NCBI GenBank assembly: GCA_025360185.1
Contig: JANYCR010000582.1
Span: forward strand, 1 to 33,028
Origin: Leptospiraceae bacterium
GTDB lineage: Bacteria > Spirochaetota > Leptospiria > Leptospirales > Leptospiraceae
Direction of reading: 5' to 3'
Length of the DNA stretch: 33,028 nucleotides
A program made the translations under genes and the position numbers. The notes beneath the pieces are model-generated. The model was not told where the DNA came from. It did not search any database and was given only the letters and a program-made list of their open reading frames with translations. Shown piece by piece: positions 25,855-32,725 of this stretch. How positions within the stretch are numbered: the stretch's first letter is position 1; every line of letters begins with the position of its first letter.

Positions 25855-28647
25855 GTGCTTAAAAAGATTTTATATTTCTTCCTGGCTTTTATCATAACAC
25901 TCGGAGCCTTTTCCTTCTTGCAAGAAGAAGTCTTGGATTCCTCACAAAAGTATTTCCCTTTATTCAATGAATATATTCCCGATAGCGTCGGGGAAATAAA
26001 AAAAATTTTCAAAGAAGAAGTAAAGAAAGAAGAACCCAAAGTAAAAACAAATCTATATGCAGGGGATAATTATGCTTATCTACTCAGGTTTCTACAGAAA
26101 CTTTCTGAGTTAGAGAAAAATAAAAAACAAATTGTCCGAGTTTTGCATTATGGAGATTCAATGCTCTGGTCGGATATGATTACATCTGGAATCAAAGAAA
26201 AATTTCAAAAGGATTTTGGTGACGGTGGAAGGGGGCTTGTGCCTATCACCAATCAACCTTCAAGGAAAGTTTTACTACATAAAAATCTTACTGATGAAAC
26301 GCAATTTACTTGGAAAAATTTAGACCATAGACAATTTGTAAATCCACAGATTGGGTTCTTAGGAGAAGCGGCTATTTCTAATTATCCGAGAGTAATCATG
26401 AAACATGAACTCGATGGAACAAGTATAGGCTGGAAGAAAGCAGAACTTTTTTTTCGCAATATGCAATCTCAGAATTCTTTAGCTATAAAGGCAAGCTATC
26501 ATACAACAACGGGTAAAATTTTACAGCCGCTCGAAGAAAATAAAATTTCACAAAGTAATTTTGACAACTGTAATCAAGTCAATATTTCATTATCTGATAC
26601 ATCTCTTCTCCAGTTAGAATTGACAGTGCCTCCGCAGACTATTTTCGATGCAATAGTTTTTGAAACTGAATTTGGAGTTTCGTACTCTACAGTCTCCAGG
26701 CAGGGAATTGAAGTAGGAGATTTGCTTTTAATAGAAGAGAAAAGCCTCGCTTGCGGGTTTACTCAGTATAAGCCGGACTTAGTTGTATTTCAGTTTGGAG
26801 TAAACGAATCGGAAAATCTAGCGCGTAAGGCGTATATAACTCCTGAAAGTTATCGTAAGAATCTAGAAGATGTTGTCGTTCGTTTTAAAAAACTTCTACC
26901 GAACGCAAACTTATTATTAATCTCTCCAATCGAAAGAATTTCTAGAAATGAAAAAGGCGAAATGGGAACCATGCCAGAAATTCTTCTGATTCGGGACACA
27001 CAAAGAGAAGTTGCAGAGAAATACCACATCGCTTTTTTTGATAGCTTTACTGCTCTCGGTGGGTCAGGACAGAACGATATTTTATCCGAGAATGGCTTCA
27101 TGCAACCGGATAAGACTCATTTAACCCGAAAAGGGGGCGAGTTCTTTGCAGAAGTATTTTACTCTGATTTTTTTACTCATTATAAAAAATTCAACGGAGT
27201 AGTGGAGGAAACACGTAAGTTAGATTTAGAAAAATTAAAGAAAGAAAAAAACAAAGAAGTCAATTTTGTTTCGAAAGCTTATTTTTATTTCTTTCTATTT
27301 GTTTGGATTTGTTCGGCACTACTTACTCGCTTTCCTGAATTAAAAATTGGATTTCTGGCAATTGTTTCCTTTTATTTTTATGCGACGTGGAATATATATG
27401 CGCTTGGAATTATTTTAATTTCTACGTTGATTGATTATTTTTGTGGACTTCAAATTTATAAGAAGCAACAAGCGGGAAGTAGAGGAACAATTTATTTAGT
27501 CTTGTCGCTTACTTCCAATTTATCAATTTTATTTTTCTTTAAATACTATGACTTTGCCATTAGCCTCATCAATGGAGTTTTAGTCAATGGAAATGCTGTT
27601 CAAATTCCACTTTTACATTTGATATTGCCGGTTGGAATTTCATTTTATACATTCCAGACTCTCTCTTATACAATTGACATCTGGCGAAAAAAATTAATCC
27701 CAGAAACAAGACTGATTCGATTCGCAGAGTATGTTGCTTTTTTCCCTCAGCTTGTGGCAGGTCCGATTGTGCGGGCAATGGAGTTTTTACCCGGACTTAG
27801 AGATAGGGGAGAACATTTCGGGTTAAAGTATATAAATTTTTCTAGCGGTATATTTCAAATACTTGTTGGGGTGCTGAAAAAAATCTTAGCTGATCGTTTA
27901 GCCTTTGGAATTGTTGATGGAGTCTATGCAAATCCAGATATGTATAGCTCTCTTGAAATACTCGCGGGTATTTATGCTTATGGAGTTCAGATATATTTTG
28001 ATTTCTCCGGTTACTCCGATATAGCCATTGGGTCCGCAAAAATTTTAGGTTATCACTTAACTCTTAATTTTAACAGACCTTATACTTCGTATTCAATAAC
28101 AGATTTTTGGAGGAGGTGGCATATTTCTCTAGGGAGTTGGTTTAAGGATTATCTGTATATACCGCTCGGTGGAAATAGAAATTTGGTCTATCGAAATTTA
28201 CTTATTACATTTATCCTCTGCGGAATCTGGCATGGGGCAGGGATTCCTTTTTTTATTTGGGGGCTGTATCATGGGGCTTTACTTGTAATCGAAAGACTTA
28301 CTGGTATAAATAAACGAGAAAATTTTTTTATGAGAGCGATTACTTTGCATTTGGTTTTATTTGGATGGATTATTTTTAGAAGCGATAGTTGGTTTACCTT
28401 TAGCCGCGTCTTGCAAAATCTTTCTAAGTTAAGTTTTCATACTGCCAACTTGGAGATTTGGATCATTTCCTTTTTAGCATTCTATTATTTTTACGAATTA
28501 TTTTATGCAAAGCTAGTCGGGCGTATGCAGCTAGTCTGGTATAAGTCTCCATCTGTCCTTCAAGGATTTTTAGCTGCCATACTTATTTTGACTGCTTATT
28601 ATCTCCATCGTGCAGAAGTTAAGCCATTTATCTATTTTCAATTTTAA
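25855..28647 (+). CDS. SGNH hydrolase-MBOAT acyltransferase fusion
   Basis: A 930-residue fusion. An N-terminal membrane helix (residues ~3-22) leads to a periplasmic SGNH domain (about 95-440). Block I is HYGDSMLWSD with nucleophile Ser102, block III is FQFGVNES with Asn317, and the catalytic pair is Asp419-His422 in PDKTHLT. A basic linker then joins a complete MBOAT module (about 475-930). It has SFYFYATWN, LPVGISFYTFQTLSYTIDIWR, FFPQLVAGPIVR, and DFSGYSDIAIG. WRRWHISLGSW carries His756 and CGIWHGAG carries catalytic His793. Both halves keep their key residues. In PatA-PatB, AlgI-AlgJ and DltB-DltD these activities are separate proteins, as in the 17082-20263 pair of this window. The start is a GTG without a clear ribosome binding site. 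The acceptor polymer is unknown. Confidence 0.88.
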   Translation: MLKKILYFFLAFIITLGAFSFLQEEVLDSSQKYFPLFNEYIPDSVGEIKKIFKEEVKKEEPKVKTNLYAGDNYAYLLRFLQKLSELEKNKKQIVRVLHYGDSMLWSDMITSGIKEKFQKDFGDGGRGLVPITNQPSRKVLLHKNLTDETQFTWKNLDHRQFVNPQIGFLGEAAISNYPRVIMKHELDGTSIGWKKAELFFRNMQSQNSLAIKASYHTTTGKILQPLEENKISQSNFDNCNQVNISLSDTSLLQLELTVPPQTIFDAIVFETEFGVSYSTVSRQGIEVGDLLLIEEKSLACGFTQYKPDLVVFQFGVNESENLARKAYITPESYRKNLEDVVVRFKKLLPNANLLLISPIERISRNEKGEMGTMPEILLIRDTQREVAEKYHIAFFDSFTALGGSGQNDILSENGFMQPDKTHLTRKGGEFFAEVFYSDFFTHYKKFNGVVEETRKLDLEKLKKEKNKEVNFVSKAYFYFFLFVWICSALLTRFPELKIGFLAIVSFYFYATWNIYALGIILISTLIDYFCGLQIYKKQQAGSRGTIYLVLSLTSNLSILFFFKYYDFAISLINGVLVNGNAVQIPLLHLILPVGISFYTFQTLSYTIDIWRKKLIPETRLIRFAEYVAFFPQLVAGPIVRAMEFLPGLRDRGEHFGLKYINFSSGIFQILVGVLKKILADRLAFGIVDGVYANPDMYSSLEILAGIYAYGVQIYFDFSGYSDIAIGSAKILGYHLTLNFNRPYTSYSITDFWRRWHISLGSWFKDYLYIPLGGNRNLVYRNLLITFILCGIWHGAGIPFFIWGLYHGALLVIERLTGINKRENFFMRAITLHLVLFGWIIFRSDSWFTFSRVLQNLSKLSFHTANLEIWIISFLAFYYFYELFYAKLVGRMQLVWYKSPSVLQGFLAAILILTAYYLHRAEVKPFIYFQF

Positions 28648-28677: not shown

Positions 28678-29349
28678 TTGACAGCTAAGAGTATTTTTTC
28701 GAACACTCAAGGTATGAAATATATTTATTATATTGCTCCGTTTGCGCTTTTATTACTCATTGGCTTTTCTTTTTTTAAAGATTTTACTAAATCTAATAAT
28801 AATGTTGGTGAGAATAATAGGGAGATTGCGCATGAATCTACTGATTCCTCCTCGACTAAGAAGAAAGGTAGGGCAAATGGAAAGTCCTTGTTTGATGAAG
28901 ATTCCAAGTTTTTAGAGTTTCCAGAAATTGGAATTGAAGACTTTGAATCCGGCGAGCTTACTCTTGCTGAACGGGAACGCAGAAAAAAACTAATCATAGA
29001 GAAATCAAAAAAACTCGCGGACATGTTTCCGCATAATTCTGTTATACCTCGGGAGTTTTCCTCTGCTGAGGCAAAGAAGCTAGTTGAGACTAGCCAGAAA
29101 ATGGCGAATATACAAAACCAATTTTTACAGAATGAAAAAGTTCCGAAAGAGGACAAACTTTTTTACTATAAAGAGAGACTCAAAACTTCTAAGGATAGAT
29201 TGGAAATTTTTCGCTATGCGCTTGGTCTCGAAAATGGGGGTGTCTTCGATGAGTCGAAGTTAGAAGGGTTTTTAAAAGAGCGCTATGAAGTATTTTTGGA
29301 AAACGAAAAAGCATACTCTAATGAAATTATAAAAGTAGAGAAAGAGTAG
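28678..29349 (+). CDS. Membrane-anchored helical protein of unknown function
   Basis: A protein of up to 223 residues. A single hydrophobic helix (YIYYIAPFALLLLIGFSFF) is followed by a polar Ser/Lys/Asn-rich linker and a mostly helical, highly charged C-terminal region with LTLAERERRKKLIIEKSKKL and LFYYKERLKTSKDRLEIFRY. The start is either TTG 28678 or ATG 28714; neither has ideal ribosome binding site spacing. It begins 30 bp after the SGNH-MBOAT fusion and is probably in the same transcript, so it may be an accessory protein for the acyltransferase. No known domain is recognised. Confidence 0.6.
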   Translation: MTAKSIFSNTQGMKYIYYIAPFALLLLIGFSFFKDFTKSNNNVGENNREIAHESTDSSSTKKKGRANGKSLFDEDSKFLEFPEIGIEDFESGELTLAERERRKKLIIEKSKKLADMFPHNSVIPREFSSAEAKKLVETSQKMANIQNQFLQNEKVPKEDKLFYYKERLKTSKDRLEIFRYALGLENGGVFDESKLEGFLKERYEVFLENEKAYSNEIIKVEKE

Positions 29350-29370: not shown

Positions 29371-31722
29371 ATGATGAATATGAATGATGGAACTATGAAA
29401 CAATCCATTTTGATAACACAGTGTTTGCAAAACGATTTTACAAAACTCATTGGAAAATTTGACGGAATCCCTAATTTGCTTCATGTTGGGTATGAAGAAG
29501 CACGTCGCATATTGAGTGAGAAAGTAGAAGAAGGACCTGTCACTACTGTTATGGATTGGGCATATCATACTCCAGAAGAAAATCTTAATATTATACATAT
29601 CCGTGATTGGCATAATCCTGATGATCCGCTTCAGAAAGATCATTTGAGTCAATTTGGAAATCACTGTTTACAAAATACAGAAGGCGCAGAATTTGTTTTC
29701 GCCAAATCTATATTACCCGGTAGAGCACACCATATTGTAAATGCGTCTGGACTAAATGATTTTGTGAATACAAATTTAGAGGAGTTATTATCTCCTTATA
29801 AATCCGAACCTGTAAAAGTGGGGCTAATGGGTGTGTGGACAGAAGCGAAGGTAACTTTTCTTGCTTATGATTTAAAAACGCGCTATCCGAATTTTGAAAT
29901 TGCGGTATGTTCGGCATTATGCGCAAGTTCTTCTAGGACGATGCATTTTATTTCTCTCGATCAGTTAACGTCTATTTTAGGAATCAAAGTATTTTCCTCA
30001 GTAGGAGATTTTACAAATTTTCTAACAGGAACTCTTCCAAAGATTGGACATAAAATACAAGATAAGAAAGCAATTCAGTTAAAATTCTCGGATCCAAATT
30101 ACAGTATATCAGAGGTTGATACTCAGATTTTACTTTATTTGTATAGGGATGCGAAAGAAGTAGAATTTCTTTGCCTGGATGGTGGGTTTTCAGGGAACGT
30201 AGTTTTAAAAGCCAGGGCAATGGATAAGTTCGGACATTACCAGGTGCCAACAGTTGTAAAGATCGGCAAACGCGAGTTAATCGCTAAAGAAAGATCTTCC
30301 TTTGAAAAAATTCAGGAAGTATTAGGAAATAATGCTCCAAACATTGTAGACTTTGCAGAGTTAGAAGATAGGGGAGCGATTAAGTATCGTTATGCGGCAA
30401 TGCTTGACAATGGAGTAAAGACATTTCAAAAATACTATGGCGCTATCGATGATATGGAAAAAATCAAGCACAAACTTGAAATTATCTTTCGTAAGCAACT
30501 CGGCAGGCTCTATGATGCATCTTCCAATGAAAAATTAAACCTACTCGAATACTATGAGTATTCCAATAAATATGCAGGCTCTATTCGTAACAAAGTAGAG
30601 GCAATCATTGGAGCACCGGCTAACGGGCATACTCTTAATCTACATGGATTTACATTTCCGAATGTATGTAATTTTTATGAGAGAGAGCTTTCCGGACTCA
30701 AAGAAAATATTACTCCCTATCATTATGTTTCTTATTTACATGGAGATTTGAACGGGGCTAATATCATTATAGACGCTCAGGAAAATGTATGGCTGATAGA
30801 TTTTTTTCATACTCATAAAGGTCATATTCTAAAAGACTTAATTAAGTTAGAGAACGATATTTTATATATCTTCATGACGATTGATTCACTTGATGAATTT
30901 AAAGAAGCAGTGCAGCTAGTTGATATTTTGCTTGACATTCATAATCTCGGCGAGCCACTGGATATTTCTCTAAAGGCAAATTTTAAATTTCCACAAATTG
31001 CAAAGGCGTTTGAGACAATCGCTATTATGCGCTCGTATTATCCCGAATTGATTCATACAGATAGAGACCCGTATCAATTATTTGTAGGACTTATGCGTTA
31101 TTCGATGCATACACTTTCTTTCGATGAGTCAAATGATTGGCAAAAAAAACTTGCCCTCTATGCAGGCGCTACTTGCTCCGCTAAAATTAAAAATACTTTA
31201 CAGACTACAAATGATCTTAGAATTGATTTTATAGAAAATCCCTCTGATAATGGTGAGGGTAAGATGGGTTTGACGATACTTCCCGGTCGAAAGGATAGGG
31301 CGCGAAGCATCACTACAGATGTAAAAGTAATCAAGTCGAATGAGATTAACGCAGTCGTATCGCTTATTACAGAATTGGAATTCGAAGAGTATGGAGTGCA
31401 AAGACTCAAATCTGCTTACGTAGATGCGGGACTTGCTACTTGCTATTTTCCAATTATCGATCAGGGGATACCGGACGTATACTCAATGAATAAAAATTTA
31501 GAATGGATGCATGAAATACTGTCTAATAAACAAAATGTATTGATTCATTGTGTTGGCGGATTAGGGCGATCGGGAACGCTGGCAGCTTGCTATTTGATTC
31601 GGTATTATGGTCTTAGCGCAAAAGATGCAGTAGCCCGTGTTCGAAAATTTAGATCCGAGCGAGCAGTAGAATCAATTGAGCAGGAAAAATTTATAGAAGA
31701 CTTTGCGAAAAGGAAATTATAA
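29371..31722 (+). CDS. Pseudo-isochorismatase, kinase-like and tyrosine phosphatase fusion
   Basis: A 783-residue protein in three parts. Residues ~10-215 look like the cysteine hydrolase (isochorismatase/nicotinamidase) fold, but the catalytic Asp position is Cys18 (in QCLQNDF) and the catalytic Cys position is Lys160 (GVWTEAKVTF), so it should be inactive. Residues ~260-600 are kinase/phosphotransferase-like: a glycine loop GGFSGNVV (271-278), Lys297 in VVKIG, HGDLNGAN (457-464) with catalytic Asp459, and metal-binding Asp477 in LIDF. Residues ~640-783 are a dual-specificity phosphatase with HCVGGLGRSG (Cys727, Arg733) and a candidate general acid at Asp697 or Asp702. The middle part recalls kinase-like domains such as TCAD9. 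Start choice among several close ATGs is uncertain. moxR follows after 16 bp. Confidence 0.75.
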   Translation: MMNMNDGTMKQSILITQCLQNDFTKLIGKFDGIPNLLHVGYEEARRILSEKVEEGPVTTVMDWAYHTPEENLNIIHIRDWHNPDDPLQKDHLSQFGNHCLQNTEGAEFVFAKSILPGRAHHIVNASGLNDFVNTNLEELLSPYKSEPVKVGLMGVWTEAKVTFLAYDLKTRYPNFEIAVCSALCASSSRTMHFISLDQLTSILGIKVFSSVGDFTNFLTGTLPKIGHKIQDKKAIQLKFSDPNYSISEVDTQILLYLYRDAKEVEFLCLDGGFSGNVVLKARAMDKFGHYQVPTVVKIGKRELIAKERSSFEKIQEVLGNNAPNIVDFAELEDRGAIKYRYAAMLDNGVKTFQKYYGAIDDMEKIKHKLEIIFRKQLGRLYDASSNEKLNLLEYYEYSNKYAGSIRNKVEAIIGAPANGHTLNLHGFTFPNVCNFYERELSGLKENITPYHYVSYLHGDLNGANIIIDAQENVWLIDFFHTHKGHILKDLIKLENDILYIFMTIDSLDEFKEAVQLVDILLDIHNLGEPLDISLKANFKFPQIAKAFETIAIMRSYYPELIHTDRDPYQLFVGLMRYSMHTLSFDESNDWQKKLALYAGATCSAKIKNTLQTTNDLRIDFIENPSDNGEGKMGLTILPGRKDRARSITTDVKVIKSNEINAVVSLITELEFEEYGVQRLKSAYVDAGLATCYFPIIDQGIPDVYSMNKNLEWMHEILSNKQNVLIHCVGGLGRSGTLAACYLIRYYGLSAKDAVARVRKFRSERAVESIEQEKFIEDFAKRKL

Positions 31723-31738
31723 CAGGAACAAATAGAGA

Positions 31739-32725
31739 ATGGAAGAATTAGTAAAAACAGAAGAGATTCAAAAAGCAAAAGAAAAAATTAATGGGCTACT
31801 AGAAGAATTAAAAAAAGAAATTACCGGGCAAACAGTCGTTATCCGAAATATCATGACCTGCCTTGTCGCACAGGGACATGTGTTGCTTGAAGGTATGCCG
31901 GGACTTGCTAAGACACTACTTGCAAAGTCAATTGCGCAAAGCATTGATCTTTCATTTAAGCGAATACAGTTTACTCCCGATTTACTTCCGGCGGATTTAA
32001 TTGGAACAGTGATCTTTAATCCAAAGACAGCCAATTTTGAAACAAGAAAGGGACCTATTTTTACAGGAATACTTCTTGCCGATGAAATCAACCGCGCTCC
32101 CGCAAAAGTCCAGTCCGCACTTCTTCAATGCATGGAAGAAAGGCTTGTAACGATAGGCGATACCACGTTTCATTTAGATGCTCCGTTTATGGTTTTGGCT
32201 ACGGAAAATCCAATTGACCAGGAAGGAACGTATCAGCTACCGGAAGCACAGATGGATAGGTTTCTGATGAAGGTAAATGTGGATTATCCCGCCGAGGCAG
32301 AAGAAGTAGCGATACTCAGTCAGCATGGAAGCGTATCTTCTAAGAATAAAGAAATTAAAAAGAGCCTTAGTAGAAAAGAGATTCAGGAAATTTCCTCCTT
32401 ATCTGATAAAATCTATATTGATGATAGGCTCAAAGATTATATTGTCAAGCTAGTTCGTAATACTCGCCCACAAACATCTAAGTTAGATGAAATTAAGCCC
32501 TACGTCAAACACGGAGTATCCCCACGTGCATCTCTTGCACTTCTACGTTGTGCACGTGCAAATGCACTCTTAGAAGGAAGAAATTTTGTGGTACCGGAAG
32601 ACATTCGTTTTTCTATCTACGAAGTAATGCGTCATCGTATGATCTTGACGTTCGAAGCTGTATCCGAAGATGTAACAGTGGATTCGTTGATTAAAACAGT
32701 CCTAGAAGTAACCGCACTTCCTTAG
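31739..32725 (+). CDS. MoxR-family AAA+ ATPase
   Basis: A 328-residue MoxR-type AAA+ ATPase, a chaperone-like protein that usually works with von Willebrand factor A proteins encoded beside it. Walker A is GMPGLAKT (residues 52-59), Walker B is [11 protein letters not shown] with Asp115-Glu116, and sensor 1 is the Asn of [23 protein letters not shown]. The C-terminal lid includes [15 protein letters not shown]. It starts 16 bp after the kinase/phosphatase fusion and is followed by a DUF58 gene, the standard first two genes of a moxR-bat (Bacteroides aerotolerance-like) operon in spirochaetes. Confidence 0.95.

Follow-up and report, generated by a model that had tools for sequence, protein, structure and literature searches.

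In the nicotinamidase PncA of E. coli (Pfam PF00857), Asp10, Lys111, and Cys156 are catalytic, and Asp52, His54, and His86 are metal ligands. Kinases of the APH type usually target small molecules, and human KAP/CDKN3 (PF05706; 1fpz and 1fq1) is a stand-alone CDK2 phosphatase. The TCAD9 kinases (PF19974) are named after MoxR-vWA-VMAP ternary systems (for background, see PMC7159879) and are known from these and from STAND-type conflict proteins; we found no functional test of the family. ADP-ribosylglycohydrolases fused to rhodanese-superfamily phosphatases have been reported as ARG-R-P systems (PMC9503650). The gene analyzed here encodes relatives of PncA, TCAD9, and KAP in one chain of 783 amino acids: a new combination of known domain families, with an unusual conserved replacement in one active site. 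A search of the open-access literature turned up no account of this combination of three domains, an absence that is weak evidence.

The gene (29371..31722, + strand) lies in the window, that is, the whole 33,028-nt stretch of DNA analyzed (Leptospiraceae bacterium, GCA_025360185.1, contig JANYCR010000582.1, forward strand). Its reading frame agrees with 27 full-length members of the family, and its start codon is uncertain within the first ~8 residues. Sixteen base pairs separate its stop codon from the start of moxR at 31739; the ORF, the coordinates, and this gap reproduce those of the initial annotation. Pfam matches to the Isochorismatase, TCAD9, and CDKN3/DSP phosphatase families all exceed the curated cut-offs. 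An AlphaFold2 model built from a 25-member alignment has a mean pLDDT of 85.8 and a pTM of 0.70, the relative placement of its domains being no proof of contact between them. Searched against the PDB with Foldseek, this one full-length model matches KAP (1fpz, TMt 0.85), Bacillus subtilis PncA (6a8l, TMt 0.79), and APH(3')-Ia (4feu, TMt 0.56), so that Pfam, the model, and Foldseek are concordant on three domains. Sequence profiles concur for the N-terminal and phosphatase domains; the middle domain is too distant from solved kinases and gives weak GCN2 and RIO matches. A chance run-on of domains or an assembly artefact is ruled out by the 27 co-linear members, the sole split case (G024) being spread over two contigs.

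The N-terminal domain (residues 9-235; 29395..30075, +) has the nicotinamidase/isochorismatase fold, as indicated by PF00857 (residues 66-200, E 7e-8), profile matches to 3hb7, 3s2s, and 1ilw, Foldseek, and the alignment with E. coli PncA. It has the fold, the DxH...H metal site, and the RDWH and HC...GA signatures in common with PncA, but differs at the catalytic triad and in being always joined to two further domains. Cys18 (29422..29424, +) takes the place of Asp10 and Lys160 (29848..29850, +) that of Cys156; the catalytic lysine, Lys111, is aligned less surely with Ser126, and its position is mostly Ser or Thr across the family. The metal ligands are retained: Asp52 and His54 correspond to Asp79 and His81 of the motif Asp79-Trp80-His81 (29605..29613, +), and His86 corresponds to His98 (29662..29664, +). 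Cys18, Asp79, His81, His91, His98, Cys99, and Lys160 are each invariant in all 27 full-length members, a count that takes in the 783-aa protein itself. The initial annotation had described an isochorismatase-like fold without its catalytic Asp and Cys, and this description holds; the retained metal site, of the Asp/His/His kind that marks the nicotinamidase subgroup, and the family-wide invariance of Cys18 and Lys160 were absent from it.

This altered site is maintained. Among the 27 members, 22% of N-domain positions are invariant, compared with 19% in the kinase and 14% in the phosphatase. Among the three closest genomes, dN/dS is 0.03-0.06 for the N-domain and 0.04-0.06 for the kinase, with synonymous sites near saturation in some pairs. 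Since purifying selection on the N-domain is as strong as on the kinase, the site is repurposed rather than decaying. Besides the pseudo-domain, we found no ordinary nicotinamidase/isochorismatase-family gene in this genome (G000, 94% complete), which is one of nine holders that have no further match to that family. The N-domain thus cannot be explained simply as the partner subunit of an active paralog, and we rejected a role as regulatory subunit of an active isochorismatase. A triad-less nicotinamidase fold with its metal site kept is best explained as a putative sensor or substrate-binding module.

The middle domain (residues 245-613; 30103..31209, +) belongs to TCAD9 by score, matching PF19974 in two stretches (E 1.1e-54) with 186.7 bits against a curated cut-off of 40. 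A model of the kinase alone has a pLDDT of 90.7, and with it Foldseek places aminoglycoside, ethanolamine, and homoserine kinases ahead of any eukaryote-type protein kinase, at TM-scores of ~0.5. The ATP-binding lysine, Lys297 (30259..30261, +), and the segment from the catalytic loop HGDLNGAN (His457, Asp459, Asn464) to the metal aspartate Asp477 in IDFFHT (30739..30801, +) are intact, and Lys297, Glu307, Glu312, His457, Asp459, Asn464, and Asp477 do not vary in the 27 members. The kinase-like middle part with Lys297, Asp459, and Asp477, for which structure prediction and a fold search of each segment had been proposed as a check, is therefore confirmed as a kinase fold. This domain shares its fold and the catalytic Lys, HGDxxxxN, and IDF with the APH(3'), choline, and homoserine kinases, although identity to them is ~15% and TM-scores are just ~0.5. 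An identity as eukaryote-type protein kinase was considered on the weak GCN2 and RIO profile matches and rejected, because the structure favors APH; by its predicted structure the domain is APH-like, of a small-molecule kinase lineage rather than of the eukaryotic type. The fold thus favors a small-molecule substrate, and TCAD9 kinases could also act on proteins. Unlike in the known TCAD9 contexts, the kinase here sits between a pseudo-nicotinamidase and a KAP-like phosphatase, without a VMAP or vWA partner.

Three other TCAD9-type proteins are encoded in the same genome (L056:5872-9864, L057:5006-8299, and L055:3291-7832; contigs C54, C598, and C403). In two of them the partner is an nSTAND1 NTPase, joined in one case by a dCache sensor; the third, which lies downstream of a cyclase gene and a NUDIX gene, has an AAA-type domain. 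Two of the three have NUDIX genes nearby.

The C-terminal domain (residues 614-783; 31210..31719, +) is a KAP/CDKN3-like Cys phosphatase, matching PF05706 at residues 618-744 (E 3e-19), the 1fpz profile (E 7.3e-32), and 1fpz in Foldseek. The likeness to KAP extends over the whole domain and includes the N-terminal LPG segment, the general acid, and the HC-x5-R loop. The predicted general acid, Asp697 (31459..31461, +), aligns with that of KAP and is present in 27 of 27 members, as are His726, Cys727, and Arg733 of the signature loop HCVGGLGR (31546..31569, +); the intact loop had been noted before. In contrast to the human enzyme, this phosphatase comes from a bacterium and shares its chain with an APH-type kinase. 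It is the sole domain of the three with close relatives elsewhere, which stand alone or are fused to ADP-ribosylglycohydrolases. The phosphatase of the ARG-R-P systems (PMC9503650) is such a relative (~33%-36% identity), whereas an ADP-ribosylglycohydrolase is absent from the three-domain family both as a domain and as a recurring neighbor. Two Spirochaetota loci encode related N-terminal phosphatases fused to an ADP-ribosylglycohydrolase, the fusion being seen by Pfam in one (L086:1489-3174) and judged by eye in the other (L087:1486-2991). In a further genome, a phosphatase-like fragment lies just 3' of the full-length gene (G043:C82:24246-24404, in L039; a 73-aa frame with 49% identity over 53 residues) and is perhaps a partial duplication.

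Full-length members are 765-823 residues long and 46%-88% identical to the 783-aa protein. Of the 100 nearest genomes, 24 have such a member, counting this one, and in one more the gene is split over two contigs; in wider samples, it is present in 27 of 393 Spirochaetota genomes, taken across the phylum, and in one of 388 Verrucomicrobiota genomes. Three records are named: two environmental MAGs of Leptospiraceae and a Verrucomicrobial one. All members have all three domains, in a single copy per holder genome, and when the N-domain and kinase profiles were searched alone in 61 genomes, every match fell within the three-domain architecture, bar one ordinary nicotinamidase (E 1e-9). The pairing claimed at the outset, which sets a kinase and an opposing phosphatase behind a catalytically disabled but conserved hydrolase-fold domain, is thereby an obligate fusion across 27 genomes. 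The plasmids, phages, and viral contigs searched contain the phosphatase domain at most and never the full protein, so that a mobile or phage-borne origin was rejected. The Verrucomicrobial copy and a copy from another family (G068) fall inside the spread of the family tree, but too many of its forks are weak for horizontal transfer to be proved. The family is old and self-contained, with a patchy distribution in spirochetes.

The 783-aa protein had also been proposed to control the system encoded next to it. The adjacent moxR (31739..32725, +; AAA_3, E 9e-63), a neighbor outside the three-domain family, heads a moxR-DUF58-vWA (Bat-type) cluster; DUF58 lies largely past the end of the window, and DUF58 and VWA were instead read in a sister locus (L032). 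In the genus of this genome, moxR follows the gene in four of four genomes, including one whose protein is just 60% identical (G001), and the link survives a change of the upstream genes in G001 and G003. Outside the genus, as far as the contigs allow, moxR is among the nearest genes at none of 21 loci. Two genomes (G004 and G006) contain both genes, but on separate contigs or at a large distance from each other, and two sister genera (G005 and G007) have the moxR-DUF58 cluster without the three-domain gene and with other genes upstream. The proposed check, whether the fusion stays upstream of moxR in other genomes, thus comes out positive within the genus and refutes the link beyond it. Co-transcription with moxR, which the 16-bp gap permits, is plausible in this genus; the evidence gives no support to a conserved functional link, and the adjacency is a genus-level habit. 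We therefore reject control of MoxR as a family-wide function on the unlinked or absent genes of G004-G007 and the 21 outside loci, and regard a role in regulating the neighboring MoxR-DUF58-vWA machinery as very unlikely even with the full linkage seen in the genus.

No recurring partner gene was found across 25 loci, whose neighbors are diverse: outside the genus they include hslU-, groES/groEL-, and hisF-like genes, recognized by eye, and an ArsA-type ATPase, recognized by Pfam. In one genus (g9), the gene lies between a 472-aa putative ATPase with no Pfam match and ArsA-type ATPases at four of four loci (L045, L048, L049, and L050). In the window, the gene immediately upstream encodes a 223-aa protein with a hydrophobic stretch at its N terminus (28678..29349, +), conserved in this position in G002 only. 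Two genes upstream, a 930-aa protein (25855-28647) combines a GDSL-lipase-type domain and an MBOAT O-acyltransferase in one chain by Pfam.

One copy per genome and the lack of a conserved partner gene suggest that the protein works alone. With the lasting fusion and the complete catalytic sets, that lack is best explained if kinase and phosphatase share a substrate or if each acts on what the other produces. We therefore infer a self-contained signaling switch encoded by one gene, with the pseudo-nicotinamidase as ligand sensor, and put the probability of this reading at about 0.4. The APH-type kinase would add a phosphate that the KAP-type phosphatase would take off again; the substrate carrying it would most probably be a small metabolite or of nucleotide type, not a protein. 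The N-domain would no longer hydrolyze amides; it may instead bind a ligand at the retained metal site and the rebuilt Cys18/Lys160 pocket, and would set the balance between the two presumed activities by allostery. Since the phosphatase clade is tied to ADP-ribose processing (PMC9503650) and the N-domain derives from nicotinamidases, NAD/ADP-ribose-type ligands would be, judging from these relatives, the foremost candidates. The phosphatase could also act on its own chain or on an unrelated target.

The same relatives allow a nonregulatory reading, in which the three domains process one nicotinamide- or ribose-containing metabolite stepwise, as a sequential metabolic or repair enzyme of NAD/ADP-ribose-type metabolism. 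The nicotinamidase descent of the N-domain, the ADP-ribosylglycohydrolase fusions of close phosphatase relatives, and the small-molecule habit of most APH-type kinases all fit such an enzyme. However, the hydrolase triad is lost, the ADP-ribosylglycohydrolase link is a feature of the phosphatase's relatives and not of the three-domain family, and neither an ADP-ribosylglycohydrolase nor an NAD gene is ever a recurring neighbor at the loci read; we consider this reading unlikely, if worth keeping in view. The conservation of Cys18 and Lys160 also fits a new catalytic activity, and both replacements and all metal ligands are invariant under selection that matches the kinase's. An N-domain active through a re-engineered metal/Cys18/Lys160 center nevertheless seems improbable to us: each of the superfamily's three catalytic positions is altered, and no amidase of the isochorismatase fold is known to us that can dispense with the Cys nucleophile. 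Even less probable is that Cys18 and Lys160, on a metal-binding pseudo-nicotinamidase, form a sensor that works by redox or covalent chemistry, such as covalent capture of a reactive metabolite or a Lys-O-Cys "NOS" bridge (PMC8964421 surveys such bridges); this sensor would drive kinase and phosphatase oppositely in a sense-write-erase circuit within one polypeptide.

A role in conflict or immunity, as a single-gene relative of the NTP-dependent conflict systems with TCAD9 kinases, is suggested by the origin of the TCAD9 name (for background, PMC7159879), the nSTAND1 fusions of the paralogs in this genome, and the patchy spread with its one Verrucomicrobial copy. The loci do not resemble a MoxR-vWA-centric ternary system, in which dedicated MoxR and vWA-effector genes are joined by a VMAP or iSTAND third component in preserved order: no such third protein is adjacent, no VMAP or vWA-effector protein is present, moxR is absent at 21 of 25 loci, and sister genera have moxR without the gene. 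Further, the protein has no match among the defense models of PADLOC, which rejects a known anti-phage system; its neighbors are of housekeeping type by eye (hslU, groEL, hisF); the mobile and viral sequences searched have the phosphatase domain at most; and its strong conservation contrasts with the fast diversification that conflict systems typically show. We therefore hold such a role to be doubtful.

If the switch reading is right, a sensor, a kinase, and a phosphatase would form a full regulatory loop within one bacterial protein without a partner gene, and the TCAD9 family would gain a tractable representative. An Asp/Cys pair replaced by invariant Cys and Lys, beside a metal site that is retained, poses a sharp chemical puzzle.
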